DNA of 64,000 nt from Desulfoscipio geothermicus DSM 3669 (GTDB lineage Bacteria; Bacillota; Desulfotomaculia; Desulfotomaculales; Desulfallaceae), in NCBI RefSeq assembly GCF_900115975.1, contig NZ_FOYM01000015.1:1-64000 (forward strand), read 5' to 3'. The position numbers and the translations under genes are program-made. The notes beneath the pieces were generated by a model. It worked only from the letters and a program-made list of their open reading frames with translations, had not been told where the DNA came from and ran no database searches. Positions 30,915 through 50,911 of this stretch are shown here, piece after piece. Positions within the stretch are counted from its first letter, which is position 1, and each line of letters opens with the position of its first letter.

Positions 30915-31148
30915 TCACCCTCCGCTAGCCGCCGGAAAGAAAATAACCTCGTCTCCGTCAATTAAGTTATACTCTTCCCCCACCATTTTCCCATTCACTG
31001 AAACAAAATGAACTTTATTCGCCGGTACTGCTAAACGTTTACGTAAATCTTCAATTGTCTCTCCCTCATTCAGTTCAACAGGACGAAATTTACTAAAAGC
31101 GGGATAATTAAAAGAAAGGATCCCCAACAACTTAACTCTCACCTGCAA
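30915..31148 (-). CDS. MoaD/ThiS-like ubiquitin-fold sulfur carrier
   Basis: A 77-residue beta-grasp protein ending in the Gly-Gly needed for thiocarboxylation (DGDEVIFFPAASGG). The start TTG 31148 has AAGGAGG upstream; GTG 31142 is an alternative. MoaD-type proteins donate sulfur to pterin cofactors. It is the last gene of the minus-strand cluster, after the UbiD gene, and is one of two such proteins here, each near a tungsten aldehyde oxidoreductase gene. Service to the tungstopterin cofactor is inferred from that position. Confidence 0.8.
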   Translation of the reverse strand: MQVRVKLLGILSFNYPAFSKFRPVELNEGETIEDLRKRLAVPANKVHFVSVNGKMVGEEYNLIDGDEVIFFPAASGG

Positions 31149-31213
31149 CTTCGTTGATACCTCCTTTTTTACTTTAGTGTATTGACGACTAAGCATATAA
31201 AATTAATCCAATT

Positions 31214-32560
31214 TCAGTCAAGATAGTCATCCAACTTTATATCGTTATATTCGGGAATGCTAATTTTTTCAAATCTTTCTGCAGGCAACTCTAACGGGAT
31301 GGTAGCATCAATCCCCATTTTATCGCTTATCCCATCATTACTGGAAGGATCTAACTTGTTTCCCATAGCTCCAGTGACTATAAAAACGTCACGTCCCGCC
31401 TGGCAGCGGGTTGCAATCGCCCATTCCACGTCTTCCGGATCAAAAATATTGACGTCGTGGTCCACCACCACCACATGCTTTACTTCACTGCAGCTGGCTA
31501 AGGCAGCAAAAATTGCGTTTTTAGCTTCACCTTCATGTTTTTTTTCAATAGAGATTACCGCGTGATAACGGCAGCTACCACCTAATGTTAAATGCACATT
31601 TTTAACGGTAGGTACCGCCTGCCGGACTATTTGTAGTAGAACGGCTTCCCGGGCAATTCCTCCTACAAGAACATGCTCGCGCGTGGCGGGAATAATTGTA
31701 TGGTAAATTGGCTGCCGGCGGTGCGTAACCGCCATTACTTCCACCACCGGCCTGGGACTGGCCGGGCCATAGTATTTTGGATATTCCCCGAAAGGCCCTT
31801 CAACTTCCCGGACCCCGGGTAGAAGCCTTCCTTCTATTACAATTTCCGCCCCGGCCGGTACCTCAAGGTCTACCGTTTCGCATTTTACCAACTCTAAAGG
31901 CTGCGGTAAGAGGGCGCTGGCAATTTCCAGTTCGTCCACCCCTATTCTGGTGGTCGCCTGAGAAGCCAATAACACTAATGGGTGAACTCCAATAGCAAGG
32001 GCTATTTCCAGAGGCCGACCTTTCTGCTCGGCTTTTGAAAAGAAATGCCACAAATGACGAGGTAAAATCAATATCCCCAGTTTATTGGGACCGGATATTT
32101 GCAGCCTGTGAATAGAGATATTTCGCACTCCCGTGTCCGGGTCTTTAGCGATTAATATAGCTGCCGTAATATAGGGTCCGGCATCCTTAGCATGATGCGT
32201 TGGAATAGGAAACATTTTAAATAAATCTATATCCTTGTTAACAATACATTCTTTTACCGGAGCACTATTTGAAGAAACCAACCGACAAGGAACAGGGTTT
32301 TCTACAGCAGCTGCAAACTTATCCAGCATCCCCTCGACAGTGGTAGACATCGCGACTGCGAAAAGCCCTCTTTCCCCGACCAACCCCGTAACTACCGGCA
32401 TTTCATATCCTTTTACCCGTTCAAAAAGCAACGAATATATGCCATCTGCTTGTTTGCCCAGTGCAGCAATTTCAAACACAGGATCTACTTCTTTTTTTAT
32501 CCGCTTTAACTTGCCTTCCCTGTCCAAAAATGCCAGCCAATCCCGCAGTGAATAAGCCAC
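31214..32560 (-). CDS. UbiD-family decarboxylase (prenylated-FMN dependent)
   Basis: A 448-residue UbiD homologue. SLRDWLAFLDREGKLKRIKK opens the protein; NISIHRLQISGPNKLGI, EGPFGEYPKYYGP with the key glutamate, and the late VVVDHDVNIFDPEDVEWAIA are typical. UbiD enzymes reversibly decarboxylate aromatic, heteroaromatic or alpha,beta-unsaturated acids using prFMN made by UbiX; no ubiX lies in the window. Start GTG 32560 follows GGGAGGG. It lies 23 bases after the alcohol dehydrogenase gene. The substrate is unknown. Confidence 0.92.
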   Translation of the reverse strand: MAYSLRDWLAFLDREGKLKRIKKEVDPVFEIAALGKQADGIYSLLFERVKGYEMPVVTGLVGERGLFAVAMSTTVEGMLDKFAAAVENPVPCRLVSSNSAPVKECIVNKDIDLFKMFPIPTHHAKDAGPYITAAILIAKDPDTGVRNISIHRLQISGPNKLGILILPRHLWHFFSKAEQKGRPLEIALAIGVHPLVLLASQATTRIGVDELEIASALLPQPLELVKCETVDLEVPAGAEIVIEGRLLPGVREVEGPFGEYPKYYGPASPRPVVEVMAVTHRRQPIYHTIIPATREHVLVGGIAREAVLLQIVRQAVPTVKNVHLTLGGSCRYHAVISIEKKHEGEAKNAIFAALASCSEVKHVVVVDHDVNIFDPEDVEWAIATRCQAGRDVFIVTGAMGNKLDPSSNDGISDKMGIDATIPLELPAERFEKISIPEYNDIKLDDYLD

Positions 32561-32583
32561 CTTTTACCCTCCCGTCTGTATAA

Positions 32584-33747
32584 TTAATATGCATTTTTAA
32601 GAATCCCCAAAATATCTTCCCGGGTTGGCACACGGGGATTAAATTTTATCATTCCGTGCTTCAAAGCTGTTTCGGCTATTGCGGCAAGCGAATCTTCTGA
32701 AATTCCAATCTCTTTTAACTGAGTTGGTAATCCAATATTTTTTACCAGTGTTTTAATCGCCCGTGGGGCTAATGAAGCGGCTTTATGCAAAGATTTACCT
32801 TCAATATGCTCTCCCATAGCGCGAGCTAAATCTGTAAATTTGTCGGGTTTTGCCATCGAATTGTATTTCATAACATAGGGTAACAACAAGCCGATTGCTA
32901 CTCCGTGACTGACGTGTACATGTCCGCTCAAAGCTGCTCCTATGGAGTGGGTTAACCCTAAGAAAGCATTGTTAAAAGCCATCCCTGCCAGCAAACTTCC
33001 CAAAGCAACATTGGTTCTGGCCACAAGGTCGTTGCCATTGGCCACCGCGGGCCTCAGAGAAGCGCTTATTAACTCTACGGCTCTTAATGCCAGGATGCTT
33101 GAAACAGGCGATGCAATTGTAGAAACGTATGCTTCTACCGCATGGGAAAGGGCGTCTATACCACTGGCCGCCGTTATCCCTGAAGGGGCGGATATCATCA
33201 TCAGCGGGTCCACAAAAGCGACGTCCGGAGCCAGATATTCACTGGTAATAGTCACTTTTATATTTTGTTCCCAGTCCGAAAGCACCGCAAAAACAGTTAC
33301 CTCGCTGCCCGTGCCTGCCGTTGTGGGTATGGCTAAAAGCGGTACAGTGGGCTTGACCTTTACTTTATTTACTCCCGCATAGTCGCCAATCTTCCCTCTA
33401 TTGTCGTGAAGCACCCTTATCGCTTTTGCAATGTCAATCGAACTTCCTCCACCCAGGGCAACCAAACAATCGGGCTTGAAGCGGCTCATAAAATCAGCAG
33501 CTTTGTGTACAGTCTCTAATCCCGGATCCGGCTCCACCTCACTGAAAACCTCAAACGTTAAGCCACTTCCTGTTAGTAAACTTTTTACTTTATCGACCAA
33601 ACCCGACTTCACAATTCCGGGGTCGGTAACCAGCAACACCCTTGCGCAACCCATATCCCTAATTGCACCGGGAAGATGCTGAGAAACTACACCGTTTCCA
33701 AAAAGGACCTTTGTTTTTACGGCAAAAGAAAAATTAAAGTCAAGCAT
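32584..33747 (-). CDS. Iron-containing alcohol dehydrogenase (copy 1)
   Basis: A 387-residue group III alcohol dehydrogenase. It has the NAD(P) loop CLVALGGGSSIDIAKAI, then LLAIPTTAGTGSEVT, and metal-binding His residues in ASGIDALSHAVEAYVS, LTHSIGAALSGHVHVSHG. Such enzymes reduce aldehydes or oxidise alcohols. ATG 33747 (after GGGGAGGG) is preferred over the in-frame GTG-like start upstream. It is 29 bases after an aldehyde oxidoreductase gene, so aldehyde and alcohol steps are probably linked. Confidence 0.93.
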   Translation of the reverse strand: MLDFNFSFAVKTKVLFGNGVVSQHLPGAIRDMGCARVLLVTDPGIVKSGLVDKVKSLLTGSGLTFEVFSEVEPDPGLETVHKAADFMSRFKPDCLVALGGGSSIDIAKAIRVLHDNRGKIGDYAGVNKVKVKPTVPLLAIPTTAGTGSEVTVFAVLSDWEQNIKVTITSEYLAPDVAFVDPLMMISAPSGITAASGIDALSHAVEAYVSTIASPVSSILALRAVELISASLRPAVANGNDLVARTNVALGSLLAGMAFNNAFLGLTHSIGAALSGHVHVSHGVAIGLLLPYVMKYNSMAKPDKFTDLARAMGEHIEGKSLHKAASLAPRAIKTLVKNIGLPTQLKEIGISEDSLAAIAETALKHGMIKFNPRVPTREDILGILKNAY

Positions 33748-33776
33748 TGCAATAACCCTCCCCAAATAGTGTAAGT

Positions 33777-35615
33777 TTAATCTAAACCAAGTTCTTTTAT
33801 TTTAGAAGGTAACGGTATCCCTTCCTCACTCCAGCCCCGGTAAGCATAATACTCCGCAAGCATAGCTTCTAATGGGGGAAGGTTTTCAGCCGCTCCTCCT
33901 GCGCCCCGATTTTGCCTGAGAATTCTTTCCGGCAATATGTCATCTTTTCGATTTACACCGCAAGAAATATTAAAAAGCCTCTTAAGGTTAAAAATACGTT
34001 CGCCGCAGCGAAGCAGCTCATCCACCGAATAACTTAAACCAGTTACCTTGTTCAACCAGCCGGTAATCTCGGTCAAGTTAACTCCTCCGAACAATAAGAA
34101 CTTACAAACTGCAAGGGAATCCATTACTGCCATCAGGTTTTGCGACTTTGCCACCAGCTCTCCTTTACCTTCAACGGCAAACCGGTCTTCAACCGCGCTT
34201 ATACCTATTTCAGGCATTGTCATATTCCGCTCGAAAATATGACTAAATGCCTCCAGGTGGCATGCCCCACGATTAGCGGTAGCGTACCCTAAAGCTATGC
34301 TGTTATAAGCCCTTGGGTCATGAGCAGGAAATCCTAACCCTTTTGCCTCTATTGCAAACTCAGCAACCTCTTTGCCAAAGAAACGTCTAATTGCCGGGAA
34401 TCCTTCCGCCAATAGGGAGCCAAGTTTACCCTCTTGATTCGCAATACAATGGATCATCTCTATGAGGACTTGCGGATCTCCCCAACGCAACTTTAGACCG
34501 CCGGTGAATTCCTCATTGATAAATCCCCTTTCAAAAGCCTCTATAGCAAAAGCAATCAGGTTACCGGTATCAATGGTGTCAATACCATACTTGTTGCATA
34601 ATTCGTTTGCATAACTTATCGCTTCCAAGTCATCTACCAAACAACTTCCACCCATTAATCCCAAGGTTTCATATTCCGGCCCCCCTCCTTTTACTCCCGC
34701 ATAGGGGCCTTCTTTAATATTTACTCTACGGCCGCAGCCGACAGGGCAACCGGCGCAATGATATCTTCCAGTAAGCAAAGTGTCGGCCATCTTCTGGCCC
34801 GAAATTTTTAAAGCACCTTCCTCCCACTTGCCCCCGGTCCAATTGCGAATGGGAAGATCCCCCGTCTGCTCACAGGGAATAACCAGACCTGCCGTGCCAA
34901 ACAGTCCAAGGACCCTTGTCTTTTCTTGAATTCTTTTCAAAACAGGCTTCAAATCTTCTCTTAAGCCGGCGGGATCACTAACTGGCAGTTCTCGCTGCCC
35001 ATATACTGCGATAGCTTTAACCCGTTTGGCCCCCATAACGGCTCCTAAACCACACCGGGCCGCAGTCCGCCCTTCTTCCCCGTCAGTAAAAATGCCGGAT
35101 ATTTTAACCATCCGTTCACCGGCGGGTCCGATAGTACATACCTCGGCCTTTTGACTGGTCAGTTGTTTTAGAGCCGTTGAACATTCATAAGTGTTTAAAC
35201 CCCACAAGGAAGAAGCCTCTTTTATTTCCACCTTTCCTTCGTTTATCCATATATAAACAGGTTTTTCCGCATTACCCTGCAGGACAAGGGCATCATAGCC
35301 GGACTTCCTCAGCATCCGGCCCCATCTTCCTCCAATGCTGGCTTCTCCCCAAATACCGGTTAAGGGCGACTTAGAAACAACGCTGTGCCTCCCGGATGAA
35401 GGAACCATTGTTCCTGTAAGCGGTCCCGTAAAGAAACCTAAATTGTTTTGTCGACCCAAAGGCTCCACCCAAGGGGAAACATTCTCGTATACGACTCTGG
35501 CCCCCAAGCCGCTTCCACCAATCCAATTTAATAATTCCTTCCCTTCTATTTTTTCTACCCGCTCTTTCCTGTGCTCTAGATCTAACCATAATATCTTGTA
35601 CTCGAAGCCAGACAT
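33777..35615 (-). CDS. Aldehyde:ferredoxin oxidoreductase (tungsten type, copy 1)
   Basis: A 612-residue AOR-family enzyme. The N-terminal pterin domain reads KILWLDLEHRKERVEKIEGK and SGRHSVVSKSPLTGIWGEAS; the cluster ligands are CAGCPVGC plus a distant cysteine in NISCGVNRKDD. It converts aldehydes to acids with ferredoxin, or acids to aldehydes when ferredoxin is very reduced. ATG 35615 follows AGAGGTG. A MoaD-like gene lies 40 bases upstream and an alcohol dehydrogenase 30 bases downstream. Confidence 0.93.
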   Translation of the reverse strand: MSGFEYKILWLDLEHRKERVEKIEGKELLNWIGGSGLGARVVYENVSPWVEPLGRQNNLGFFTGPLTGTMVPSSGRHSVVSKSPLTGIWGEASIGGRWGRMLRKSGYDALVLQGNAEKPVYIWINEGKVEIKEASSLWGLNTYECSTALKQLTSQKAEVCTIGPAGERMVKISGIFTDGEEGRTAARCGLGAVMGAKRVKAIAVYGQRELPVSDPAGLREDLKPVLKRIQEKTRVLGLFGTAGLVIPCEQTGDLPIRNWTGGKWEEGALKISGQKMADTLLTGRYHCAGCPVGCGRRVNIKEGPYAGVKGGGPEYETLGLMGGSCLVDDLEAISYANELCNKYGIDTIDTGNLIAFAIEAFERGFINEEFTGGLKLRWGDPQVLIEMIHCIANQEGKLGSLLAEGFPAIRRFFGKEVAEFAIEAKGLGFPAHDPRAYNSIALGYATANRGACHLEAFSHIFERNMTMPEIGISAVEDRFAVEGKGELVAKSQNLMAVMDSLAVCKFLLFGGVNLTEITGWLNKVTGLSYSVDELLRCGERIFNLKRLFNISCGVNRKDDILPERILRQNRGAGGAAENLPPLEAMLAEYYAYRGWSEEGIPLPSKIKELGLD

Positions 35616-35654
35616 TTTATCACCTCTATTTTGCTTCATCTAATTCTGCATAAA

Positions 35655-35912
35655 TCAGCCACCCATAGCAAGAAGCATTATCTTTACGGCCTGCCTGTTT
35701 CCAACTATACAATCCATCCCAACAACCCTATCATTTATTATTACAAGCAAGTCTTCCGGCCTATATTCGAATTTATTATTGCTATTTACTTCATCTAAAA
35801 CTTCTCTCAATATCCAATCGACGTTAATTTCCTTGTAGTCTACTTCTACACATCTTGTTTTTTCCCCATTTTTAAGCTTTAGTGGAGGGTATAACTCTAA
35901 AAAAAATTTCAC
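35655..35912 (-). CDS. MoaD-like sulfur carrier, second copy
   Basis: An 85-residue beta-grasp-like protein with a terminal Gly-Gly (KIMLLAMGG). The sequence between (NSNNKFEYRPEDLLVIINDR) is quite different from the copy at 30915, so they are not recent duplicates. It directly precedes the aldehyde:ferredoxin oxidoreductase gene, a frequent arrangement in AOR loci. Confidence 0.7.
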   Translation of the reverse strand: MKFFLELYPPLKLKNGEKTRCVEVDYKEINVDWILREVLDEVNSNNKFEYRPEDLLVIINDRVVGMDCIVGNRQAVKIMLLAMGG

Positions 35913-36107
35913 TTTTCAACATCCTTATTTTAGGCTGATTAAAATACTAGGTTTACCCTCAGTCCGGCCAATATCCAACTGATAACCAAGACTGCTCAGG
36001 ATCATAGTAAGCAGAATAAAGGGGATTAATCCCTTTATGATACATAAAGTAACAAACCATACCCGACAGGGGCCCCAGTAGGACAAATCATTTACTCATC
36101 ATTAAAA

Positions 36108-36968
36108 TCACAATAATCCAGCCGCAGCTAAGGCAATTATAATACTTTTACCTATTGCTATACTCGTAACTGGTGGGTCTATATATGAATTAGTTCTAAC
36201 AATCCAAAACTTATTAAACAAACTCGCTACAATAGCTGTCACTGCCCCTAGCACTGCTGCCCAAATAATAGCATTAACAGTTCCGTTTCCTTGAAGTGCG
36301 GCTAAACCTGCCACTATGACGATATGATGCCACGGCAGTCCATTAAATCCCATCTGAAGATAGATCAGAAACAACAGCGCCAATCCGAAGGGTATCAGCA
36401 CATCGCCGATTTTAGCAGCAGCTACTCCCCCTGCTAATCCGACTCCACACCCAAGTACTACAAGCAAGCCCAATTCTTTACTGCTAGGCCACCAAGTTTC
36501 ACCTTCTCCACCTTTCCTACGATTAGTACGCCATTTCGAATCAAAAAGCAGCCTGGCCAACCAACCCGTAATGACCACAGATAGCGCTACAGTATCAGTG
36601 GGGAGCGCCAAGCTGGTGCCTACACGTTCCAAAACCATACCGATAACGCCGAATATTCCACCAACCAAAAGAATATCTGGTCTACCAAAACCGGACAAGG
36701 GTTTGAGTATATCTAACCCACTTTCTATAGCCCCTTTTGACCATGCATAGGCAACGGCAGCCGCTCCGCCGGCATACACAATATGCGCACCGAAAAGCGG
36801 GTTAAATGCAATATCCCATACTAATGCGGGTTTACCAGTTACAAGCCCGGCCAGACCGGCAACCATCAAAACAACACCCCACAACGTAATGGCCGGGAGG
36901 GCTCCCATAGCTGCTCCCAGTATACCCCCTCCCAGGGCTCCAATTACCATTAAAGGTTCAATACCCAT
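36108..36968 (-). CDS. Multi-pass membrane protein, unknown, in the catabolic cluster
   Basis: A 286-residue protein with about eight hydrophobic helices, very rich in Gly and Ala (VIGALGGGILGAAMGALPAI; VGLAGGVAAAKIGDVLIPFG). One hydrophilic loop at about 145-165 is charged. ATG 36968 has GGGAGTG upstream; ATG 36986 precedes that site. It belongs to no transporter family I recognise. Its place between aldehyde oxidoreductase and alcohol dehydrogenase genes suggests it carries the pathway's substrate, but this is inference. A small 23-base inverted repeat lies downstream at 36016. Confidence 0.6.
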   Translation of the reverse strand: MGIEPLMVIGALGGGILGAAMGALPAITLWGVVLMVAGLAGLVTGKPALVWDIAFNPLFGAHIVYAGGAAAVAYAWSKGAIESGLDILKPLSGFGRPDILLVGGIFGVIGMVLERVGTSLALPTDTVALSVVITGWLARLLFDSKWRTNRRKGGEGETWWPSSKELGLLVVLGCGVGLAGGVAAAKIGDVLIPFGLALLFLIYLQMGFNGLPWHHIVIVAGLAALQGNGTVNAIIWAAVLGAVTAIVASLFNKFWIVRTNSYIDPPVTSIAIGKSIIIALAAAGLL

Positions 36969-37005
36969 TTTGTTAATCACTCCCATAGTTAAAAAATGTT
37001 GTTTT

Positions 37006-37033
37006 GTAGTACGGGGTTTAAGCCCCGTACTAC
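37006..37033 (-). terminator. Strong hairpin between alcohol dehydrogenase 2 and the membrane protein
   Basis: GTAGTACGGGG and CCCCGTACTAC form a perfect 11-bp stem around TTTAAG; on the minus strand AAAACAACATTTTTT follows. It may partly terminate or set a processing point inside the cluster. Confidence 0.6.
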
Positions 37034-37043
37034 ATTAAAAATC

Positions 37044-38231
37044 CTATAGAACGTCATTTCCGTAGTAGGCGCAAAGGAAGATTTTCTTGATTTCTTCCAG
37101 AGTCGGCACTCGCGGATTGGTCGGCGTACTGCCATCGTTCATGGCATTCTGAGCAAGCATATCTATCTTCTTCAGGAAGTCTTCCTCATCAATGCCCGCA
37201 TCCTTCAGGCAAGTAGGTATGCCAAGGACTTTTTGCAGATCCCGGATCGCTTTTATAAATTTAGCCGTACCTTCATACGTATCAGTCGACTCAAACCCAA
37301 ATGCCCTGGCAACATTAGCATAACGAGCTGCAGCCGCAGGTGTGTTATACTGAACCACATATGGTAACATCATCGCGTTAGCCCGGCCGTGCGGTACTCC
37401 GTACTCCGCTCCGATTTGGTGCGCGGTACTGTGTACCAGTCCCAGGGCAGTATTGGTGAAGGTAAATCCCGCCATCAGGGATGCGGTATGCATTTTTTCC
37501 CTTGCTTCTTTATTATTGCCATTGGCAAACGCCAGTGGTAACCACTTATAGGCCATGGCAGCCGAACTCAACGCAATGGGGTCAGTCACATCAGAAGCGT
37601 TTACTGAAACGTACGCCTCGACAGCATGAACGATGACGTCAAAACCGGTATTGGCGGTAACTACCGGTGGCATTGTGGAAGGCAATTCAGGATCGCAAAT
37701 AGCAATGTCGGGCGTGACTTCATAGGAGAGGGTAAATTCTTTGACATTAGGTTGAACATCACGGTTGGTAATTACTGCGGCAAGTGTTACTTCAGTAGCG
37801 GTACCACTTGTAGAAGGAATAGCCACATACCTGGCCTTATTTCTTAGCTTGGGCACGCCGGTAAAAGGAACAAAAATTTGTTCCCAGGATACATCGGGAT
37901 GCTCGTAAAAAATCCACATGGCTTTACCGGCATCGAGGGCCGATCCGCCACCTAAACCTACGATCAAATCCGGCTGGAATTGTTGCATCACCTTGACGCC
38001 TTTCATCACCGTTTGACGGGAAGGATCCGGTTCTACTTCATCGAATACGGCGCTTTCAATCCCAGCTTCAGCCAGATAACTCTTTACTTTTTCTACAAAG
38101 CCGAGCTGCTGCATTATTTTATCTGTTACAATTACTGCCTTCTTACCTTCCAGCTCTTTAAGATATTCAAGACTGCCCCACCCAAAAACAATATCTCTTG
38201 GAACACGGAACCATTTTGAATAACCTGACAT
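37044..38231 (-). CDS. Iron-containing alcohol dehydrogenase (copy 2)
   Basis: A 395-residue group III alcohol dehydrogenase with LIVGLGGGSALDAGKAMW, YVAIPSTSGTATEVTLAAVI, the His-containing NTGFDVIVHAVEAYVS and LVHSTAHQIGAEYGVPHG. ATG 38231 follows GGGGGAAG. It differs clearly from copies 1 and 3, so different substrates or cofactors are likely. It is separated from the upstream aldehyde oxidoreductase gene by a 200-base gap with a long inverted repeat, so it may have its own promoter. Confidence 0.93.
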   Translation of the reverse strand: MSGYSKWFRVPRDIVFGWGSLEYLKELEGKKAVIVTDKIMQQLGFVEKVKSYLAEAGIESAVFDEVEPDPSRQTVMKGVKVMQQFQPDLIVGLGGGSALDAGKAMWIFYEHPDVSWEQIFVPFTGVPKLRNKARYVAIPSTSGTATEVTLAAVITNRDVQPNVKEFTLSYEVTPDIAICDPELPSTMPPVVTANTGFDVIVHAVEAYVSVNASDVTDPIALSSAAMAYKWLPLAFANGNNKEAREKMHTASLMAGFTFTNTALGLVHSTAHQIGAEYGVPHGRANAMMLPYVVQYNTPAAAARYANVARAFGFESTDTYEGTAKFIKAIRDLQKVLGIPTCLKDAGIDEEDFLKKIDMLAQNAMNDGSTPTNPRVPTLEEIKKIFLCAYYGNDVL

Positions 38232-38340
38232 GAAATCTTCCCCCTTGTCTTTTAGAATTTTTCAATTCCTTTTGGCATACGTCCACTTAAAAGCTGTCCT
38301 GTATAAAATTCTTTACGGTAAATTACCACCCCCCTATTTT

Positions 38341-38396
38341 TGATAATGTAGGATGTTATTCTGTTATTATCCAATAATAAACACCCTACATTATCA
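38341..38396. promoter_or_regulatory. 17-bp inverted repeat between AOR copy 2 and alcohol dehydrogenase 2
   Basis: TGATAATGTAGGATGTT (38341-38357) pairs with AACACCCTACATTATCA (38380-38396) with one mismatch, and the loop contains a further TTATTA/TAATAA pair. No T-run follows. It may be an operator or an RNA stabiliser that sets unequal expression along the cluster. Confidence 0.55.
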
Positions 38397-38435
38397 TTTC
38401 TTTAGTATGGTTGTTTTTCCATCAAAATGATCCCT

Positions 38436-40316
38436 TTACTGGATCGCAAACTCAAGGTCCAGCTCTTTAAGTTTCTCAGGGGTGGGTAGGCCGGTCTGTT
38501 TGTCCCAGCCCATGGCCTCATAATAAACATCCAGCATTAAATCCAGATTTTCTACCTTGGCTCCAGCCGATGGCCCATTAGGAATAGCTTGGGCAAATCG
38601 CTTGGGAAGTTTATCGTCCTTGCGGGTAAAGCCTTCACGGGCGTTAAAGCACCGTTTAAGGTTCCACGAACGCTCTGCCGCCGCCACCAGTTCTTCTGCC
38701 GTTACGTCCCATCCGGTGAGGGATTTTACAATCTCAGCGTAGAGCTGCGGTGTGATGCTATTACCTTCGACACCCCAGGAGTGGAAGATACACGCCCCCA
38801 GGATTTCGCTAACTTCACCCTGTAAGGCAACATACCGGTAGGAGACGCCTCTCTTCGAGGACTCTTCCTGCGGCCCTTCAGGCCACGAGGGCAGGCCAAA
38901 TTCTTTCATACCGCAGTCAATTTGAAAGTCCCAGGTACTGGCCCAGTTGGGGTGCATGTGACAGGCTCCCCGCGGGGAAACGGCATATTGAATAGCCAAA
39001 GACTTAGATTCGGAGCGTGGCTCGTGGGCCGGCAATTCAAGGCCCTTTACATGGATGGCCGCTTCTTCGGCAGCCGGGCCAAGTTGTTCTGCCATGCGTT
39101 TAACACCCTGGGCCAGCAGGGCGCCAATTCCTTCTTTGTAGGCGATCTTTTCTACCAGTTTCAGCATTACATCGGCATCGCCCCACCGTAAAGGCATTCC
39201 ATCTGTATCCTTATCGGTCAGCAATCCTTTTTCATAACATTCCATGGCAAAACCAATACTCATACCTGTACTGATTGTATCCAGGCCGTAAACATTGCAC
39301 AGGTAATTGCCTTTAATAATGGCTTCAACGTCATCGATTCCACAAATAGGCCCTAACATATCGACTGTTTCGTATTCCGGACCTTCCATGGGCGGTGTGG
39401 AATACTTCCCGTTATTCACCGAGGTGTAGCGGCCGCAGGCGAAACTACAGCCGTAACAGGCCCGCCGTTTGATTTGATATTTCTGGTTGATTAGTTCGCC
39501 GGAAACTTTGTCGGCTTTTTCAAAATGTGCTTCCTGGAAGTTCTTAGCAGGAAGGATTCCCAGGCTGTTGTTTAACGATACCAGGCCGACTGTACCCAGA
39601 GCCGGAATAGCGTCAAAGATGTAACTCTTTAACCATTGTTCCGCCTTCTCAATGGCCTCCGCAAATTCCTTCGGGCGTGCTACTTTAATACCGCCACTGC
39701 CGTTTACAACAACTGCCTTCAAATTTTTGTTTCCAAATACTGCGCCAATACCGCCGCGACCGGCAGCCCGTCCCCTGTCATTTATTAAAGCGGCATATAA
39801 AACGCCGTTTTCCCCTGACTGCCCTATAGTAGCTACGGAAATTTCAGGATCGTCAAGTTCATTTATTAAAGTGTCTGTGGTCTCTTCAACGTTCAGACCC
39901 CACAGGTGCTTGGCAGGTTTGATTTCTACCTGGCCGTCTTTGATAAGCAAATAAACGGGATCGGCTGCTTTACCTTCTATGACTACAAAATCAAACCCCG
40001 CGTATTTAAGCTTGGCACCGAAAGCCCCCCCTGACCGAGCCTCGTTCCAGGTACCTGTCAAGGGCGCCTTGTAACAAACCTCATAACTGCCTCCGCTGGG
40101 ACAAAGGGTGCCGCTCACGGCTCCGGTAGCAAGTACCACCTTTGCCTCCGGGGCCAAAGGGTCAATGCCGCCGGGCATTTCCTGATAGAGCAGTTTGGCT
40201 GCATAGCCTGTACAACCCATATACTTGCGCAATTCTTTCTCATCCAGCTTTTCTACCTTTAATTCACCGCTGTTTAGGTTAACCCGCAATAATTTACCTG
40301 CAAACCCGTACAACAT
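38436..40316 (-). CDS. Aldehyde:ferredoxin oxidoreductase (tungsten type, copy 2)
   Basis: A 626-residue AOR-family enzyme. It has GKLLRVNLNSGELKVEKLDE, the cluster ligands CYGCSFAC, a late Cys in LKRCFNAREGFTRKDDKLP, and ELPAHEPRSESKSLAIQYAV in the pterin region. ATG 40316 follows GGGGGAGG. The gene directly upstream (21 bases) is a four-cluster ferredoxin, its probable electron partner. This pairing resembles AOR complexes with a polyferredoxin subunit that can drive acid reduction. The sequence is well diverged from copy 1. Confidence 0.94.
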   Translation of the reverse strand: MLYGFAGKLLRVNLNSGELKVEKLDEKELRKYMGCTGYAAKLLYQEMPGGIDPLAPEAKVVLATGAVSGTLCPSGGSYEVCYKAPLTGTWNEARSGGAFGAKLKYAGFDFVVIEGKAADPVYLLIKDGQVEIKPAKHLWGLNVEETTDTLINELDDPEISVATIGQSGENGVLYAALINDRGRAAGRGGIGAVFGNKNLKAVVVNGSGGIKVARPKEFAEAIEKAEQWLKSYIFDAIPALGTVGLVSLNNSLGILPAKNFQEAHFEKADKVSGELINQKYQIKRRACYGCSFACGRYTSVNNGKYSTPPMEGPEYETVDMLGPICGIDDVEAIIKGNYLCNVYGLDTISTGMSIGFAMECYEKGLLTDKDTDGMPLRWGDADVMLKLVEKIAYKEGIGALLAQGVKRMAEQLGPAAEEAAIHVKGLELPAHEPRSESKSLAIQYAVSPRGACHMHPNWASTWDFQIDCGMKEFGLPSWPEGPQEESSKRGVSYRYVALQGEVSEILGACIFHSWGVEGNSITPQLYAEIVKSLTGWDVTAEELVAAAERSWNLKRCFNAREGFTRKDDKLPKRFAQAIPNGPSAGAKVENLDLMLDVYYEAMGWDKQTGLPTPEKLKELDLEFAIQ

Positions 40317-40336
40317 TACTTAGCCACCTCCCCCTT

Positions 40337-40798
40337 CTAACCAATCTTAATTGCATGGGCCATAGCCCAAAGCTCCCGGCGCCTGGCTGCAGCTTTGCCC
40401 GCATCTTCGTACTTAATGGCGTCATGCGGGCAATGCCCGGCACACGCCGGTGAACCGCCACATAAGTCACACTTGGCCGCTACATCTGCTACTTCATCAA
40501 TTCTTAGCACACCGTAAGGGCAAACCTTTACACATGTGCCGCAGCCTGAGCAAAGATCTACATCCACTTCCACAGCGTCAGTAGATCCGTTTCGATTGAG
40601 TGCTCCGGTTGGACAAACGTCCATGCACAAGCCACACTGCACACATACTACCGGCACATCTACCGCCGGCTCCCTGCGAATCACATACACATTGCTGCGT
40701 GAAGGATTGATTTCGCCATACTTCGTCAACGAACACCACATTTCACAGCGATGGCAACCGGTGCACAAAGACGGGTCTACAGTCAACACTTTTGACAC
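40337..40798 (-). CDS. Polyferredoxin, electron-transfer partner of AOR copy 2
   Basis: A 153-residue protein of the HycB/AorB kind with cysteine sets for four [4Fe-4S] clusters: CTGCHRCEMWC, CVQCGLCMDVCP, CSGCGTCVKVCP and CDLCGGSPACAGHCP. Start GTG 40798 follows GGAGGTG. It carries electrons between the aldehyde oxidoreductase encoded next and a soluble or membrane acceptor. It is about 100 bases downstream of alcohol dehydrogenase 3. Confidence 0.92.
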   Translation of the reverse strand: MSKVLTVDPSLCTGCHRCEMWCSLTKYGEINPSRSNVYVIRREPAVDVPVVCVQCGLCMDVCPTGALNRNGSTDAVEVDVDLCSGCGTCVKVCPYGVLRIDEVADVAAKCDLCGGSPACAGHCPHDAIKYEDAGKAAARRRELWAMAHAIKIG

Positions 40799-40898
40799 AT
40801 GCAGTCACCTCCAAAAAGTAGCTTTACTTTTTATTACAGGTGGAAGGCAGTAAAACAAAAGTACTCCCTCCCACCAAAAAGCTCTAATATTTGTTAAT

Positions 40899-42101
40899 CT
40901 AATACAGGTTCTCACCCAGACGTCCTTCATAACTTCTGGTCAGCAGTTCTGCAGCCGCTTCCCTGGTCATCGACCGCTTGGACCAGCCGTAAAAGGCTGT
41001 AATCCATGGGCTCTCTACCATCATCTCAGTTAACATTGGGATATCTTCCTTTTTTCCTAAAGGTGCCCATGTAGTGGAAAGACCAACATCCTCTATCAGC
41101 TGTTTAACCGCATATACAGCAGCCTGAGCGGCCTGGCGAACGCTCATACCAGAGGTATTCTGACCTAAAGTCGTCGCAATGCGAGCCAGTTTATCTATGC
41201 AATGTCCCATGTTATACTCCATCGCGTAGGGCAGGGCAATCGCACAACCAACACCATGCGGTACATGGTATACAGAACCTAAAGTATGCGCCAAAGCATG
41301 CCCCTCCACGATACCTGGATCATTAAATGCCATGCCGGCCATCATTGAAGCATAGGCCATCTTGACCCGGGCTTCCAGGTTATCCCCTTCGTAAACGGCA
41401 ACCGGTAGGGCCTCTGCTATCAATTCAACCGCCTTAAGTGCAATTGCATCAGTAAGCGGGTTTTCCTGTCTTGCCATCATCGTCTCGATAGCATGCGACA
41501 GAGCATCAGCACCCGAAGAAGCAGTAACTTTAGGCGGCATACTTACGGTCAGGGTAGGATCCACCAGTGCCATATCGGGTAAAATGGTCGGCGTGGCAAA
41601 GAAGCCTTTAATATCGTCTTCAGCAAAGGTTATAACAGAATACATCGTACATTCAGTACCGGTTCCGGACGTGGTGGGAATGGCAATAATAGGTACACCC
41701 TTTTGGGGGAAAGTTGTATTAACCAAATAATCCTTAGTTTTACCCGGCAACACCAGGAGTTCAGCAACTACCTTGGCAATGTCAATAGCACTTCCGCCAC
41801 CCAGACCAATAACAAAGTTACCGGCTTCCTTACGAGCAAAATCAGCAGCCTGGTCACACACCACATCATCCGGTTCGGGTTTACCCTGGTCAAAAACCGC
41901 TGCTTCAAATCCGTCTTTCTTGAAGGCCTGAACTACCCGATCTGCGATACCCGCCTGAGCTACGCCGGGATCGGTTACAATAATAGCCTTTCCGCTTATA
42001 CCCATTTCTTTTACATACAGGCCAATGTTGTCTACGGCATTTACACCAAACACCACTTTTTGAGGAGTATAGTATTGAACCACTTTGAGCATTGGGAACA
42101 T
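40899..42101 (-). CDS. Iron-containing alcohol dehydrogenase (copy 3)
   Basis: A 400-residue group III alcohol dehydrogenase with FVIGLGGGSAIDIAKVVAEL, IIAIPTTSGTGTECTMYSVI, SSGADALSHAIETMMA and EGHALAHTLGSVYHVPHG. ATG 42101 follows AAGGAGG. It starts a block with the polyferredoxin and AOR copy 2. The 460-base gap upstream holds the second copy of the interspersed repeat, so this block probably has its own promoter apart from the aldolase group. Confidence 0.93.
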   Translation of the reverse strand: MFPMLKVVQYYTPQKVVFGVNAVDNIGLYVKEMGISGKAIIVTDPGVAQAGIADRVVQAFKKDGFEAAVFDQGKPEPDDVVCDQAADFARKEAGNFVIGLGGGSAIDIAKVVAELLVLPGKTKDYLVNTTFPQKGVPIIAIPTTSGTGTECTMYSVITFAEDDIKGFFATPTILPDMALVDPTLTVSMPPKVTASSGADALSHAIETMMARQENPLTDAIALKAVELIAEALPVAVYEGDNLEARVKMAYASMMAGMAFNDPGIVEGHALAHTLGSVYHVPHGVGCAIALPYAMEYNMGHCIDKLARIATTLGQNTSGMSVRQAAQAAVYAVKQLIEDVGLSTTWAPLGKKEDIPMLTEMMVESPWITAFYGWSKRSMTREAAAELLTRSYEGRLGENLY

Positions 42102-42292
42102 AAAAACACAACCTCCTTAACTTAATATTTTCACCATGAGACTACAGCTGCCACAAAAGTAAATACCAATGAATCTACTTTTAGCTTTTATCTATCTGAA
42201 TTCACCTCCTTTGGTTTCTTGATTCTTACAAAAAGTGTTTGTTTTTATGGTTACGGTTATCATACAATAATTCTAAAAATTTTAAAGCTTCT

Positions 42293-42431
42293 GCCTTAAA
42301 AGGGGCACGAAAGAAACAAGAAATTCTAAGCGGCAAAGGCTTGGGGAGCGGAGCGTATATGTAATAGGTGAGCACCGCAAAAGCCTAGCCAACGTAGTGG
42401 TTCGTTATGGTCTCGCAGGACTTTTTTAACA
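42293..42431. repeat. Structured repeat, copy 2 (family of the 25.5-kb element)
   Basis: The core 42330-42397 (GCGGCAAAGGCTT, GGAGCGTATATGTAATAGG, GTGAGCACCG, AGCCAACGTAG) matches copy 1 at 25547-25615 with about nine differences and one single-base gap. Flanking sequence also matches (AGGGGCACGA left, AGGACTTTTTT right), but the terminal inverted repeats are more worn. It lies in the 42102-42562 gap upstream of alcohol dehydrogenase 3; an unused AAAGGAGGTGA site lies at about 42203-42213 on the minus strand. Confidence 0.78.
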
Positions 42432-42562
42432 TTCTTTTTAAACATTTTTTTAAAAATTTTAAACCTATCCGGTTATTGTGATAACAAGACAATCTGGTAT
42501 AGGGGGCCGGCTTCTAACTCTAAACCGAACCCCCATTAACGCACAGTATATCAATCAGTTTA

Positions 42563-43576
42563 TCAACCAACCATAATATTTTTCTTTTGAGCCATTTCGT
42601 AAGCTACGTCTAGAATATAATCTTCCTGACCGCCTACGATCTTACGACGCCCCAATTCTAACAGTATATCCCTCGGATCTAATCGAAACTTTTCCGCCGC
42701 CCGGTAGGTATGCAGGAGGAAACTGGAATAAACCCCGGCATAACCCAAAATTATCGAGGAATTATCAATCACCTGCGGCCGGCGCATCATGGGCTCCAAC
42801 GTGGTGGCAGCGTCCATGATTTTGTAAAGATCCATATCTACCTTGTAGCCCGCCTTTTTAAGAGCTGCCACCAAAACCTCTGTGCAGGTGTTGCCGGCCC
42901 CGGCTCCAAGGCCGCGCAGGGTACCATCCACCACTGTTGCCCCGGCGTCCACCGCTGCCAGAGTGTTACCAACGGCCAGACCGAGGTTGTTGTGGGCATG
43001 AAATCCCACAGGAACCTTAAGCACAGAGCACAGGTAGCTTACCTTTTCTTTCACTTCCGACGGGATCATAGCCCCGGCGGAATCTACCACGTAAACAACG
43101 TCTGCGCCGTAGCTTTCCATTAACTTGGCCTGTTCGGCGATCTTTTCTTTGCCCACGGTATGGGACATCATCAGGAAACCGACAACTTCCGTACCCATTT
43201 CTTTTGCCAGTCCCATATGCTCTTCCGAAACATCTGCCTCAGTAACGTGAGTAGCAATGCGAAAAACTTTTACACCTGCTTTTACGGCCGTCCGCATATC
43301 TTCACAGGTACCAATGCCGGGCAAAATCAATGCTGCCAGCTTGGCTCGCTTCAGCGTCGCGGCTACCGCTTTTAGATACTCTTCGTCCGTAGCCGCAGCA
43401 AACCCGTATTGGAATGACGATCCGGCAAGCCCATCACCGTGAGTAACCTCGATTACGTCCACGCCTGCCTCATCCAGGGCTGCCCCCACCTGAGCCATTT
43501 GCTCCGGAGTAAACTGGTGAGCCATAGCATGCATGCCATCCCGCAAAGTAGTATCCATAATTCTAATGTGAGGCAC
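42563..43576 (-). CDS. dmpG: 4-Hydroxy-2-oxovalerate aldolase
   Basis: A 337-residue DRE-TIM metallolyase. Motifs are [20 protein letters not shown] at the N-terminus, [20 protein letters not shown] with the metal histidines, and [16 protein letters not shown]. It splits 4-hydroxy-2-oxovalerate to pyruvate and acetaldehyde and hands the aldehyde through a tunnel to its dehydrogenase partner. GTG 43576 is chosen (GGAAGGAGG 9 bases upstream); it overlaps the partner gene by 14 bases, as in known DmpFG pairs. Confidence 0.95.
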
Positions 43577-44465
43577 AGCTTCCAACCTCCTTCCGGTTGT
43601 AGACGCCCAGCAAACGCATGGCCATTAATTCTCCCACCCGTACAGCCGCTGAGGTCATTATATCCAGGTTGCCCGCGTAAGTGGGCAAAAAATCTCCTGC
43701 GCCGGTAACTTCGATGATAGTGGTTACTTTATTCCCTTCAACAAAAGGTTCCACCCGCAAATGATAACCGGGCACATATTCTTGAATTCGCCTTACAATG
43801 TCGTGCACTGCAGACCGAATCAACTCTTCATCCGGATTTTTAACCAGGGTATAGATGGTGTTATGCATCATAATTGGAGGATCGGCAGGGTTAAGGATGA
43901 TGATCGCTTTCCCTTTCTTTGCTCCACCCACAATTTCCAAGGCCCTGGATGTGGTTTCGGTGAACTCGTCAATGTTCTGGCGTGTTCCCGGCCCGGCACT
44001 CTTGCTGGCAAGAGACGCAATGATTTCCGCGTACTGCACACCTGCTACCCGGTTGATAGCGGCAACGATGGGCACGGTGGCTTGACCGCCGCAGGTAACC
44101 ATGTTCACGTTTATGGCTTCCAGATGTTCATCGACATTTACAGCCGGAACCACGTAGGGACCTACTGCAGCGGGGGTCAGGTCAATAGCAATTTTGCCCG
44201 CTTCCCGTAACAAAGGCGCGTGCTTAAGGTGAGGTTTGGCGCCAGTAGAGTCGAAGACTATTTTAATGTCCGGTTCCTGTAAAACTGCGTTGATTCCTTC
44301 GTGAGAAGCCTTTATCCCTAGTGACTTAGCCCTGGCCAGTCCTTCCGACTCCGGGTAAATACCTACCATCATAGCCGCTTCTATGTATTTACTGCGCAGC
44401 AGCTTATACATCAAGTCAGTCCCGATATTGCCCGGCCCAACGATTGCCGCCTTAACTTTTTCCAA
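43563..44465 (-). CDS. dmpF: Acetaldehyde dehydrogenase (acetylating)
   Basis: A 300-residue short acetylating dehydrogenase of the DmpF/MhpF family. The Rossmann start is [20 protein letters not shown]; the catalytic cysteine is in [20 protein letters not shown]. It turns acetaldehyde, NAD and CoA into acetyl-CoA. TTG 44465 is chosen because GAGGAGG lies just upstream and it gives the normal family length; a longer frame adds 27 unlikely residues. It sits between the hydratase and aldolase genes, the classical lower meta-cleavage order. Confidence 0.95.
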
Positions 44466-44496
44466 AACAAAACCCTCCTCAAGTGTCATGCGTTGT

Positions 44497-45279
44497 TTAT
44501 TCCACGAATCTGGCTGATACCGATCCAAGACGATCAAAGGTTGCATGAATCACCGTACCGGGTTCAACTGCAACTGCCTGGGTTAATGAACCGGAAAGCA
44601 CCACCATTCCAGGTTCTAGGCTTAAATTGTAACGGGCGATAGCATTGGCCAACCAGGCCACCGCCGCCGCAGGATGTCCCAGCACTGCCGCCCCCGCACC
44701 AGTAGCAACAACCTGCCCGTCTTTTTCCAGTGCCAACCCCAGTAAACGCAAATCCAGTCCATCAACGGGCATCAATGCCCCTCCAAGAACAATGGCTGCC
44801 GAAGAAGCATTGTCGGCGATGGTATCTTGAATCTTTATCTTCCAGTCCTTAACCCGGCTATCAATAATCTCCAGTGAAGGCATCACCCCGGCAGTGGCTC
44901 TTAGTACATCTGCCACAGTCACGCCGGGCCCGCACAAACGCTCGCGCAGCACGAAGGCTACCTCTGCTTCTACCCTGGGCTGGATTAAACGCGAGAGGCT
45001 CACTGGTTCCCCTTCGAATACGACCATTGAATCCAGAACGTGGCCGTAATCCGGCTCGTGCACTCCCAACATCTGTTGCATGGCCTTGCTGGTCAATCCA
45101 ATCTTCATTCCCACTACCTTTTGCCCACGGGCCAGCTTTTGTTCTAACATTTTGAGTTGGATGTTGTAGGCAGTGGGAATGTCCACTTCAGGCCATTCCA
45201 CAGTAAGGGGGTTAGTGGGAATACGGGTTTCCTCAGCCCGCAGCAGGCGTTCAGCCCACTCCTGAATTCTGTTCTCCAT
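44497..45279 (-). CDS. 2-Oxopent-4-enoate hydratase (MhpD/DmpE family)
   Basis: A 260-residue FAH-like hydratase. Typical parts are [43 protein letters not shown] with metal-binding acids, and PSLEIIDSR. It adds water to 2-hydroxypenta-2,4-dienoate to give 4-hydroxy-2-oxovalerate. The closely related 4-oxalocrotonate decarboxylase cannot be fully excluded, but no second family member is present. ATG 45279 lies 12 bases after GAGGTG. The adjacent aldolase and dehydrogenase strongly support the hydratase role. Confidence 0.9.
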
Positions 45280-45353
45280 TATGATTTTTTTCACCTCTAT
45301 TCGATAATATAGAACGGTGTTTATAATTCTCCGTATTTATTTAGCGGGCGAGT

Positions 45354-46175
45354 TTAAACTCTCCCGCGCACCTCAAACCGTAGATCCGCCATAGGAGCAT
45401 CAAGAACGGCGCGTCCCACATCAATGACGTCCAAATCCGTTTCCAACAATAACGGCAGGTCGCGCTCCGTTACTCCCCCGGCAAAGGCAAGGCGTACCTT
45501 TTCTCGCCAACCACCCTTCCTGAGATGAGTGGAAAGCTTAACTACATCCTCGACCATTCCGGTATCCACCATCAGGATATGGGCGCCTCCTGCAATGGCC
45601 AGCTCAGCCTCGGCAGCAATTTCACCCCACTCACCTTTTAGCTGAATAATCTTCTGTCCCGGCATACCGGCTACTGCTTTCAGGGTGGCCGCGATACCGC
45701 CCAACATTCGAACATAGTTTTTATCCAGATATATGAAAGGGGGTTCCGCAATACGCGTATCGAGTCCCCCCAGCGACGCTGCCCGGCGTAATAAGAAGCG
45801 CCAGGGTAGAGGAAGCTTCTTCCACCCACCGCAGACCACCTGCACTCTGGGGGAAAGTACAGTGCTGAAGAAGTGGGCGGCAGTGGCCACACCGGATGCC
45901 TTCCCAATCCAACCGGATATCCGGTCTTCTGCCACTGCCAGGCTAACCGGAGTTCCCACCAGTTCCAATAAAGGGCTGCCGGGCAGAACCACCTCTCCCT
46001 CCTGCACCATCACCCGTACCTGAAGTTCTAGTTTCTCTGCTTCCTGGAGGGCCTCATCCATACCTGCCGCTACCACTGAATGGGTCGGCACAATTTCCGC
46101 CCGGCAAAACGCCTTCTCCAGGCCGTGAAAGATAGTCCAGCGCAAGTCATCAGAAGGGAGAATGCACTTTTCCAC
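45354..46175 (-). CDS. NadC/ModD-like phosphoribosyltransferase
   Basis: A 273-residue type II phosphoribosyltransferase-like protein. It has the N-terminal hammerhead (VMVQEGEVVLPGSPLLELVG) and barrel motifs related to NadC: GWKKLPLPWRFLLRRAASLG where NadC has its TRKT block, then FIYLDKNYVRMLGGI where NadC has its KDNH block, and a phosphate loop near RLAFAGGVTERDLP. It is diverged from true quinolinate phosphoribosyltransferase. In this place, between a LarA-like gene and the hydratase, it may act on a pyridine-type precursor; that is speculation. GTG start after GAAGGAGGG. Confidence 0.7.
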   Translation of the reverse strand: MEKCILPSDDLRWTIFHGLEKAFCRAEIVPTHSVVAAGMDEALQEAEKLELQVRVMVQEGEVVLPGSPLLELVGTPVSLAVAEDRISGWIGKASGVATAAHFFSTVLSPRVQVVCGGWKKLPLPWRFLLRRAASLGGLDTRIAEPPFIYLDKNYVRMLGGIAATLKAVAGMPGQKIIQLKGEWGEIAAEAELAIAGGAHILMVDTGMVEDVVKLSTHLRKGGWREKVRLAFAGGVTERDLPLLLETDLDVIDVGRAVLDAPMADLRFEVRGRV

Positions 46176-46205
46176 AGTCCCTTTATACCCTCCTTCAATT
46201 TTCTC

Positions 46206-47645: not shown

Positions 47646-48259
47646 TAGCGTTTCCTCCTTTCATCGGCTTCTACCAAAGCATCAAGCAATTTACGATCTT
47701 CATTGAAATAGAAGCCACGCCGGGCATATTTCTTTTTAACTTCTTCTGAAATGTCCCAAACCGTTGGCGTAAGACCGTACCACTGGTAACCCCTGGCCGG
47801 GCGCTCCGGTACAATTCCCGCCGCATGCAATAACCGCAGCACCGGCTGAATACACTCCACCTTGCACCCGGTTCGCACCCCTGTCTGCCGGGAAACCTCC
47901 TCCGGCGATTTTGCCCCTTGAAGAACCGCCGCTGCTACTTCCTCGGCTCTAGTAGCCGTACAGTAGCAAATAATCTGCTCTGGATGCAAACGCGCCCTCC
48001 GGCAGAGATCGATTACAGCCCCCCTGTCCAGTCCTTCCAAATTCGTTTGTACTACCCGTGAATGTTCACGGTGAACCATAGTAATAGCCATTTCCGGACA
48101 GCGCTGCTCACAATTAGCACAACCCATACAGTTTTCCAGGTCTACCACCGCTTTTTTGCTTTCCATCTTAATGGACAGCACCGGGCATACCCGTTCACAA
48201 CGCATACAGCCCTTGCATTTATCCATATCTACCACAGGGTACATGGTTACTGTGCGCAT
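47645..48259 (-). CDS. Ferredoxin with BFD-like [2Fe-2S] domain
   Basis: A 204-residue protein. Residues 5-65 hold two [4Fe-4S] motifs (CKGCMRCERVCP, CMGCANCEQRCP). Residues 90-150 are a BFD-like domain with C-x-C (IICYCTATRAEEVAAAV) and C-x4-C (GCKVEC). The C-terminal 55 residues are charged and lack known motifs. It is probably the electron partner of the enzyme that follows with a one-base overlap. ATG 48259 follows AAGGAGG. A 13-codon frame with its own AGGAGG (48283-48324) lies just upstream and might be a leader peptide. Confidence 0.85.
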   Translation of the reverse strand: MRTVTMYPVVDMDKCKGCMRCERVCPVLSIKMESKKAVVDLENCMGCANCEQRCPEMAITMVHREHSRVVQTNLEGLDRGAVIDLCRRARLHPEQIICYCTATRAEEVAAAVLQGAKSPEEVSRQTGVRTGCKVECIQPVLRLLHAAGIVPERPARGYQWYGLTPTVWDISEEVKKKYARRGFYFNEDRKLLDALVEADERRKR

Positions 48260-48365
48260 TGACACACCTCCTTCGTACGACATTACCAAATGCTGTTCGT
48301 GCTTATAGAAATACTTCGCTCCATTACTTAAAAATCCTCCTACTCCCCCAAAAAAATTTTTTTTA

Positions 48366-50887: not shown

Positions 50888-50911
50888 TTTATTAAGGAGT
50901 AGAGAAAGTAT

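Follow-up and report, generated by a model that had tools for sequence, protein, structure and literature searches.

A probable anaerobic furan-degradation cluster of Desulfoscipio geothermicus and its LarA-fold candidate for reductive ring opening

In a 64,000 nt stretch of Desulfoscipio geothermicus DSM 3669 (contig NZ_FOYM01000015.1, positions 1 to 64,000; hereafter the window), a long run of minus-strand genes combines aldehyde ferredoxin oxidoreductases (AORs), Fe-alcohol dehydrogenases (ADHs) and a UbiD decarboxylase with the enzymes of a lower meta-cleavage pathway. The run very probably serves the anaerobic catabolism of furans. With modest confidence, we favour a complete explanation in which the ring of 2-furoate is opened reductively by P479, a protein of 479 amino acids with a predicted LarA fold. 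This proposed key catalyst and the genes for synthesis of the nickel-pincer nucleotide (NPN) lie just outside positions 30915-42101, the block described in an earlier sequence-only reading of this DNA, which overlooked them.

Open reading frame calls confirmed a run of ten minus-strand genes from 42101 to 30915, and most family matches are far above cut-off. The two AORs, three Fe-ADHs, two MoaD-like proteins, UbiD and membrane protein that the sequence-only reading had reported in ten consecutive genes are present as said, and only the ferredoxin Fd4 was missing from the inventory in its title. The paralogues are as diverged as it had stated, with 36% identity between AOR1 and AOR2 and 36% pairwise among the three ADHs. 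The block is therefore real, but its boundary is artificial: the same-strand run extends upstream of 42101 to 49319 and comprises 17 genes, of which the ten form the 3′ half. Relatives have counterparts of the plus-strand genes at 49997-52767 within this cluster or next to it. The features are given below, the seven upstream genes and then the ten of the block in order of transcription, followed by the plus-strand genes.

48504..49319, minus strand: IclR-family regulator, first gene of the block (PF01614/PF09339); its orthologue heads the cluster in most relatives.
47645..48289, minus strand: FdBFD, with two [4Fe-4S] motifs and a BFD-like [2Fe-2S] domain (Fer4, Fer2_BFD); proposed electron donor of P479.
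46206..47645, minus strand: P479, 479 amino acids, LarA fold (AlphaFold2 model, residue spacing); proposed nickel-pincer 2-furoate reductase (ring-opening).
45354..46175, minus strand: QRPT, quinolinate-phosphoribosyltransferase-like (PF01729/PF02749; PDB type II QAPRTase, E 6e-10); proposed cofactor role.
44497..45294, minus strand: hydratase of the 2-hydroxypenta-2,4-dienoate (2-oxopent-4-enoate) family (TIGR03220, 303 bits, cut-off 408.8; best PDB match 8ih6, a 2-oxopent-4-enoate hydratase).
43563..44546, minus strand: acetaldehyde dehydrogenase (acylating), AcDH (TIGR03215, above cut-off).
42563..43585, minus strand: 4-hydroxy-2-oxovalerate aldolase of the DmpG type (TIGR03217 above cut-off, DmpG_comm domain).
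40899..42101, minus strand: ADH-A, Fe-alcohol dehydrogenase (PF00465/PF25137); proposed furfuryl alcohol/furfural step.
40337..40798, minus strand: Fd4, ferredoxin (Fer4 matches, Cys pattern); proposed electron subunit of AOR1.
38436..40316, minus strand: AOR1, aldehyde ferredoxin oxidoreductase (PF02730/PF01314; PDB 9mqx, 1aor, 8c0z); proposed to convert furfural to 2-furoate.
37044..38231, minus strand: ADH-B, AdhE-C-like Fe-alcohol dehydrogenase (PF00465; C-terminal part of NF010378, 427 bits).
36108..36986, minus strand: hydrophobic membrane protein matching no Pfam family; putative furan transporter.
35655..35912, minus strand: MoaD1, small carrier (size, C-terminal GG; no Pfam match); probably the tungstopterin sulphur carrier for AOR2.
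33777..35639, minus strand: AOR2, aldehyde ferredoxin oxidoreductase (PF02730/PF01314); proposed for the 5-hydroxymethylfurfural (HMF) branch, yielding furandicarboxylate.
32584..33765, minus strand: ADH-C, Fe-alcohol dehydrogenase (PF00465); proposed for the HMF branch.
31214..32560, minus strand: UbiD, HmfF orthologue, a prenylated FMN (prFMN)-dependent 2,5-furandicarboxylate decarboxylase (full-length match to 6h6v).
30915..31196, minus strand: MoaD2, ThiS/MoaD-type sulphur carrier (PF02597, E 8e-10).
49997..50887, plus strand: MoCF, an N-terminal domain and a MogA/MoeA-like nucleotide-binding domain (PF00994); proposed cofactor role.
50912..51676, plus strand: LarB, AIR-carboxylase domain (PF00731); NPN synthesis.
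51673..52767, plus strand: LarC (Ni insertion), N-terminal half with a His-rich tail (PF01969, 307 bits, profile positions 1-235 of 375).

The assignment to furans comes from the UbiD protein, which aligns with HmfF (6h6v) over residues 1-448 of 448 (E 1e-256; next protein E 3e-69). In G022, the genome with the best-matching synteny (G, C and L numbers are our handles for genomes, contigs and loci), the UbiD at the same cluster position is identical in every residue to the protein of 6h6v. The Pelotomaculum thermopropionicum protein is listed as BAF58677, and 6H6V is cited as HmfF (PMC8988006). We noted no difference between the window UbiD and HmfF of this organism (PDB 6h6v, 6h6x), whose genomic surroundings go unmentioned in the papers available to us. 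The active-site His reported to govern furan specificity is H297 (PMC7976604). H296, R304 and R331 are invariant in 11 UbiD orthologues, and as H296 is the only nearby His we equate it with H297, the numbering offset of one being our own reading. UbiX, which supplies prFMN, is present in the same genome (TIGR00421, 269 bits, G000:C46). The orthology of UbiD with HmfF ties the block to furans, and the most likely role of its AORs and ADHs is to oxidise furfural to 2-furoate and HMF to furandicarboxylate. The partners found in each module suggest one AOR/ADH pair per furan branch.

In the proposed route, 2-furoate would be formed from furfuryl alcohol and furfural by ADH-A and ADH-B together with AOR1, presumably a tungsten enzyme, and Fd4, with reduction of ferredoxin. 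ADH-C and AOR2 would convert HMF to 2,5-furandicarboxylate, which HmfF would decarboxylate to 2-furoate. P479 would carry NPN made by LarB, LarC and LarE, and FdBFD would pass electrons from AOR-reduced ferredoxin to this cofactor; since the AORs reduce ferredoxin, aldehyde oxidation would supply the electrons for ring opening. In LarA, C4 of the cofactor accepts the substrate hydride (PMC12611868). In the reverse of this uptake, the P479 cofactor would give a hydride to C5 of 2-furoate, and the resulting C4 anion would expel the ring oxygen, breaking the C5-O bond to form the dienolate of 2-hydroxypenta-2,4-dienoate. Hydratase, DmpG and AcDH would then lead from this compound to pyruvate, acetaldehyde and acetyl-CoA. 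The mass balance is exact, as 2-furoate (C5H4O3) plus 2[H] gives C5H6O3, the formula of 2-hydroxypenta-2,4-dienoate. Of the conserved core proteins, only P479, FdBFD, QRPT and MoCF have no known role. On balance, we judge it slightly the better assumption that P479 opens 2-furoate reductively.

Conservation was examined by searching 119 relatives for P479, the membrane protein, AOR2 and UbiD and reading the matching loci, and by sampling 398 genomes of the phylum. Thirty-five P479 loci were compared gene by gene, a count in which many gaps fall at contig ends and two FdBFD genes missed by the open reading frame caller were later recovered. G022, G025, G055, G063 and G086 each have both halves of the run in one place and, small differences aside, in the same order. 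The same gene order is found in G091, but with UbiD reduced to a 102 amino acid fragment, and G071 carries the lower half together with ADH-A, Fd4 and AOR1, with AOR2 on another contig. The functional unity with the lower meta-cleavage trio proposed in the sequence-only reading is supported, as both halves form one syntenic unit in relatives; the condition that would have refuted that reading, separately regulated halves that never co-occur in other genomes, does not hold.

P479 is present in 13 of the 119 relatives and in 27 of the 398 sampled genomes. It is carried by eight of the nine relatives with an HmfF-type UbiD (Fisher 1.4e-8, indicative only as the genomes are not independent) and by all eight with an AOR2 orthologue of at least 50% identity (Fisher 1.6e-9, likewise indicative, with kinship uncorrected). 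Orthologues of the membrane protein (76-91% identical) occur only in P479-positive relatives. Across the 35 loci, a core of IclR, FdBFD, P479, QRPT, MoCF, hydratase, AcDH and DmpG is nearly constant: DmpG, AcDH, hydratase, MoCF, QRPT and IclR each accompany P479 in 28-33 of the 35 genomes, and the MoCF orthologue lies inside the cluster in 30. The module of ADH-A, Fd4, AOR1 and MoaD and that of AOR2, ADH-C and UbiD are gained and lost separately. Orthologues of ADH-A (80-92% identical) move together with Fd4-AOR1, and the order AOR2-ADH-C-UbiD is conserved in relatives. As these modules vary while the core stays, the block is best understood as an upper pathway of two exchangeable modules on a constant core.

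P479 is absent from the 15 other genomes of the same family, and the closest orthologues (mostly 73-89% identical) are in G022, a member of another family, a distribution that suggests horizontal transfer. A search of genome contigs with AOR2 returned only distant AORs (35-41%) without synteny, and no P479 was found in plasmids. Of the 35 loci, 20 have a BenE-type carboxylate transporter within the core or close to it. TRAP-type transporters lie beside UbiD at L150:3779-6681 (there also with AOR2/ADH-C) and at L158:10627-13641, and are candidate furan-acid importers that may replace the small membrane protein. In the G022 cluster, an ATP-grasp/CoA-binding protein resembling ADP-forming CoA ligases lies between the membrane protein and AOR2 (L088:16672-18774). 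An M24 peptidase was considered as a ring-opening hydrolase but rejected as an essential component, being absent from the block of the window and present in only 20 of the 35 loci.

P479 matches no Pfam or NCBIfam family, with no Pfam hit even at E 1, including Lar_N/DUF2088 (PF09861), and its profile found no match among PDB sequences at E 10. LarA-family structures are top-ranked for both of two AlphaFold models (predicted local distance difference test, pLDDT, 58 and 69), and for the second model the 11 best PDB chains are of the LarA family (Z 13.1-15.8; Foldseek E 4e-6), the next chain being unrelated (Z 8.2). Ten of these chains are named LarA, and the eleventh, the unnamed Thermotoga protein 4nar, was taken for a member. 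On the strength of these models, P479 almost certainly has the LarA fold.

The key residues of LarA include H174, K184 and H200 (PMC7583248), as well as D72, R75, K298 and the second catalytic His, H108. In P479, H191-x9-K201-x15-H217 is invariant in 32 homologues with spacing identical to H174/K184/H200, a match whose chance among the invariant positions of P479 is ~0.001, and canonical LarAs of related genomes carry the same His/Lys/His pattern. By spacing, K201 and H217 correspond to the NPN-binding Lys K184 and the Ni-binding His H200 of LarA, and H191 to the catalytic H174. A comparison by hhalign of the P479 profile (32 rows, effective sequence number only 1.5) with that of canonical LarA (15 rows) did not reach significance (E 0.14), although the local alignment pairs the expected stretches; the argument for homology thus rests on the fold, the residue spacing and the linked lar genes. 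With the LarA superfamily (NPN-dependent lactate and malate racemases; 5huq, 6c1w, 7s91, 9q3k) P479 shares the fold, the H174/K184/H200 spacing and the larB/larC linkage. It differs in scoring below every Pfam and NCBIfam threshold, in its dedicated Fe-S partner, and in its proposed reaction, a net reduction of an aromatic ring and not an isomerisation. We describe it as a LarA-fold protein and do not place it in the described LarA superfamily.

FdBFD directly adjoins P479 wherever both are seen, and its Cys25/28/31/35, 54/57/60/64 and 108/110/142/146 are invariant in eight orthologues. LarB and LarC adjoin the block on the plus strand, and a second run resembling larB-larC-larE lies at G000:C60:76026-78143 (L172), so that LarB, LarC and LarE are all encoded in the genome. 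LarB is embedded in the cluster in 10 of the 35 genomes, and LarB, LarC and LarE lie inside it in several genomes other than this one. No LarC2 is readable in the three forward frames just downstream of the window LarC, and a LarC2-like piece near L172, on the other strand, has in-frame stops. LarC alone was rejected as a diagnostic marker, as it is present in 98 of 120 relatives. Since the three weak Lar_N matches of the genome lack the NPN motif, P479 is the only candidate found there to use the cofactor from the two lar sets, and we consider it likely that it does so.

In G221, the QRPT-like protein and MoCF are fused into one protein of 595 amino acids (L161:5652-7439), which indicates that the two probably act together. 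Speculatively, they may serve the P479 cofactor by precursor supply or adenylylation. As they also track P479 more closely than LarBCE does, our guess is that they make or adenylylate a special form of it. The fullest version of the proposal, in which P479-FdBFD would be the first net-redox nickel-pincer enzyme to open a furan ring, with QRPT-MoCF tailoring or supplying such a cofactor form, seems to us evenly poised between true and false.

Several observations weigh against the proposed route. Judged from the weak profile alignment, LarA D72, R75 and H108 are apparently replaced by S86, G89 and R127 in P479, which would therefore depart from the two-base mechanism of LarA. The AlphaFold2 model is poor at the proposed site, with pLDDT <50 in residues 187-200 and 205-223. 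NPN binding is deduced from three residues and the linked lar genes, and the substrate and net reduction from stoichiometry and neighbours. The hydratase and UbiD score below the cut-offs of the equivalog models of their families. The strongest competing explanation, which we consider unlikely, keeps the furan cluster but makes P479 an NPN enzyme acting on a 2-hydroxy acid, as a racemase or dehydrogenase (for example of 2-hydroxypent-4-enoate, with electrons passing to FdBFD), and leaves ring opening to an enzyme outside the cluster. 2-Hydroxy acids are the substrates of all LarA enzymes characterised so far (PMC7583248, PMC11770544), P479 retains one of the catalytic His as well as the Lys and His that bind NPN, and FdBFD could accept electrons as well as donate them. 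However, in the same weak alignment the full set of racemisation residues (both bases, D72 and R75) is not retained. The core of the 35 genomes holds no other conserved candidate for ring opening, and no 2-hydroxy-acid intermediate is obvious between 2-furoate and the trio. It is less probable still that the core of P479 and the trio degrades a different (hetero)aromatic acid, with the furan AOR/UbiD modules as accessories linked to it in some genomes. In about 18 of the 35 P479 loci, the stretch read does not contain these modules; BenE takes its name from benzoate, and QRPT-like enzymes act on pyridine carboxylates. In addition, in three relatives (L154:2351-8980, L155:10307-15297 and L170:374-5347) genes for a split Mo-hydroxylase (FAD, 2Fe-2S and two Mo-domain proteins) come after the core, and then one for a LarA homologue, whose Lar_N match is above cut-off in L155; this arrangement hints at a second route by which substrates enter the core, and other substrates are possible. 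On the other hand, HmfF-type UbiD and AOR2 are almost confined to P479 genomes, the one-block gene order is conserved in several genomes, the mass balance of 2-furoate agrees with the C5 product, and loci without the modules could simply import furoate.

The sequence-only reading had envisaged an AOR/ADH block that handles several aldehydes in series, possibly in the opposite direction, with low-potential ferredoxin driving the reduction of an acid through aldehyde to alcohol; we give this explanation little credence. AORs are reversible, Fe-ADHs often reduce aldehydes, and anaerobes are known to detoxify furan aldehydes by reducing them to alcohols (for example PMC4265447). HmfF, however, needs a diacid made by oxidation, and with the lower trio the pathway is catabolic. 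The direction is therefore most likely oxidative, with UbiD as an HmfF decarboxylase acting after HMF oxidation. The idea of a series is not supported either, because the two AOR/ADH units are separable and the modules (ADH-A, Fd4, AOR1 and MoaD; AOR2, ADH-C and UbiD) occur independently, as expected of modules for different furans. Finally, the Trudgill route (furoyl-CoA synthetase, the furoyl-CoA dehydrogenase HmfABC and 2-oxoglutarate) could operate with the linked genes unrelated to it, and HmfF is indeed known from that route (PMC6604932). We hold this to be extremely improbable, since the genome has no PF02738 Mo-hydroxylase catalytic subunit (0 matches, positive controls worked, completeness 99.99%), which excludes the route here unless a non-homologous furoyl-CoA dehydrogenase exists; PF02738 is also absent from 14 of the 35 other P479 genomes.

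The proposed reductive route is most readily compared with the hmf (Trudgill) pathway of Cupriavidus basilensis HMF14, in which furan alcohols and aldehydes are likewise oxidised to acids and HmfF decarboxylates 2,5-furandicarboxylate to 2-furoate (PMC6604932). There, 2-furoate is converted to furoyl-CoA, hydroxylated by a Mo-enzyme and taken to 2-oxoglutarate under aerobic conditions. Here, in contrast, there is no Mo-hydroxylase, the window encodes no CoA step before ring opening, AORs replace the aldehyde dehydrogenases, and a C5 dienoate would lead to pyruvate and acetyl-CoA. The lower part has the same hydratase, acylating acetaldehyde dehydrogenase and aldolase families as the DmpE-DmpF-DmpG lower meta-cleavage pathway, adjacent and in one direction. 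It differs in having no ring-cleaving dioxygenase, the dienoate coming from the proposed reductive, oxygen-independent step.

Both AOR1 and AOR2 have AFOR_N and AFOR_C domains and the CxxCxxxC cluster motif, and both align full-length with 8c0z and 1aor, which we take to be the AORs of Aromatoleum aromaticum and Pyrococcus, respectively. Compared with those enzymes, the block has two paralogues that are each linked to an ADH of their own, and no AorC-like FAD subunit was seen in it. Fd4 has 16 Cys, arranged as three canonical CxxCxxCxxxC motifs and a fourth set of four Cys, lies directly upstream of AOR1 in relatives too, and is presumably a polyferredoxin partner like that of AorAB-type enzymes. 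The genome has a large aldehyde and alcohol repertoire, with about ten AOR-family proteins and 13 Fe-ADH matches. No tungsten/molybdenum-cofactor riboswitch reaches the Rfam threshold in the window. A c-di-GMP-I riboswitch (7627-7711, plus strand) and a SAM riboswitch (15217-15329, plus strand) are above Rfam cut-offs and are unrelated to the block.

In lignocellulose processing, furfural and HMF arise as major by-products and act as major inhibitors, and anaerobic growth on furfural was reported decades ago. A 2018 review described the anaerobic furan route as still undiscovered and called for one (PMC6604932). In the openly readable literature we found nothing relevant on an anaerobic furoate pathway or a link between NPN and furans, nor any NPN enzyme paired with an electron-transfer protein, though a prior description is possible. 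The undescribed anaerobic route that the sequence-only reading had seen here keeps its very probable end in pyruvate and acetyl-CoA; all of its enzyme families except P479 are already known, and we found no published description of the route as a whole. The cluster offers candidate genes for every step of anaerobic furfural and HMF degradation, for which P479 can serve as a marker gene. To our knowledge, the nickel-pincer cofactor has so far been known only in 2-hydroxy-acid isomerases, and our proposal predicts that it can also drive the net reduction of an aromatic ring. If true, ring opening by P479 would be a new class of reaction and the missing step of anaerobic furfural and HMF degradation.

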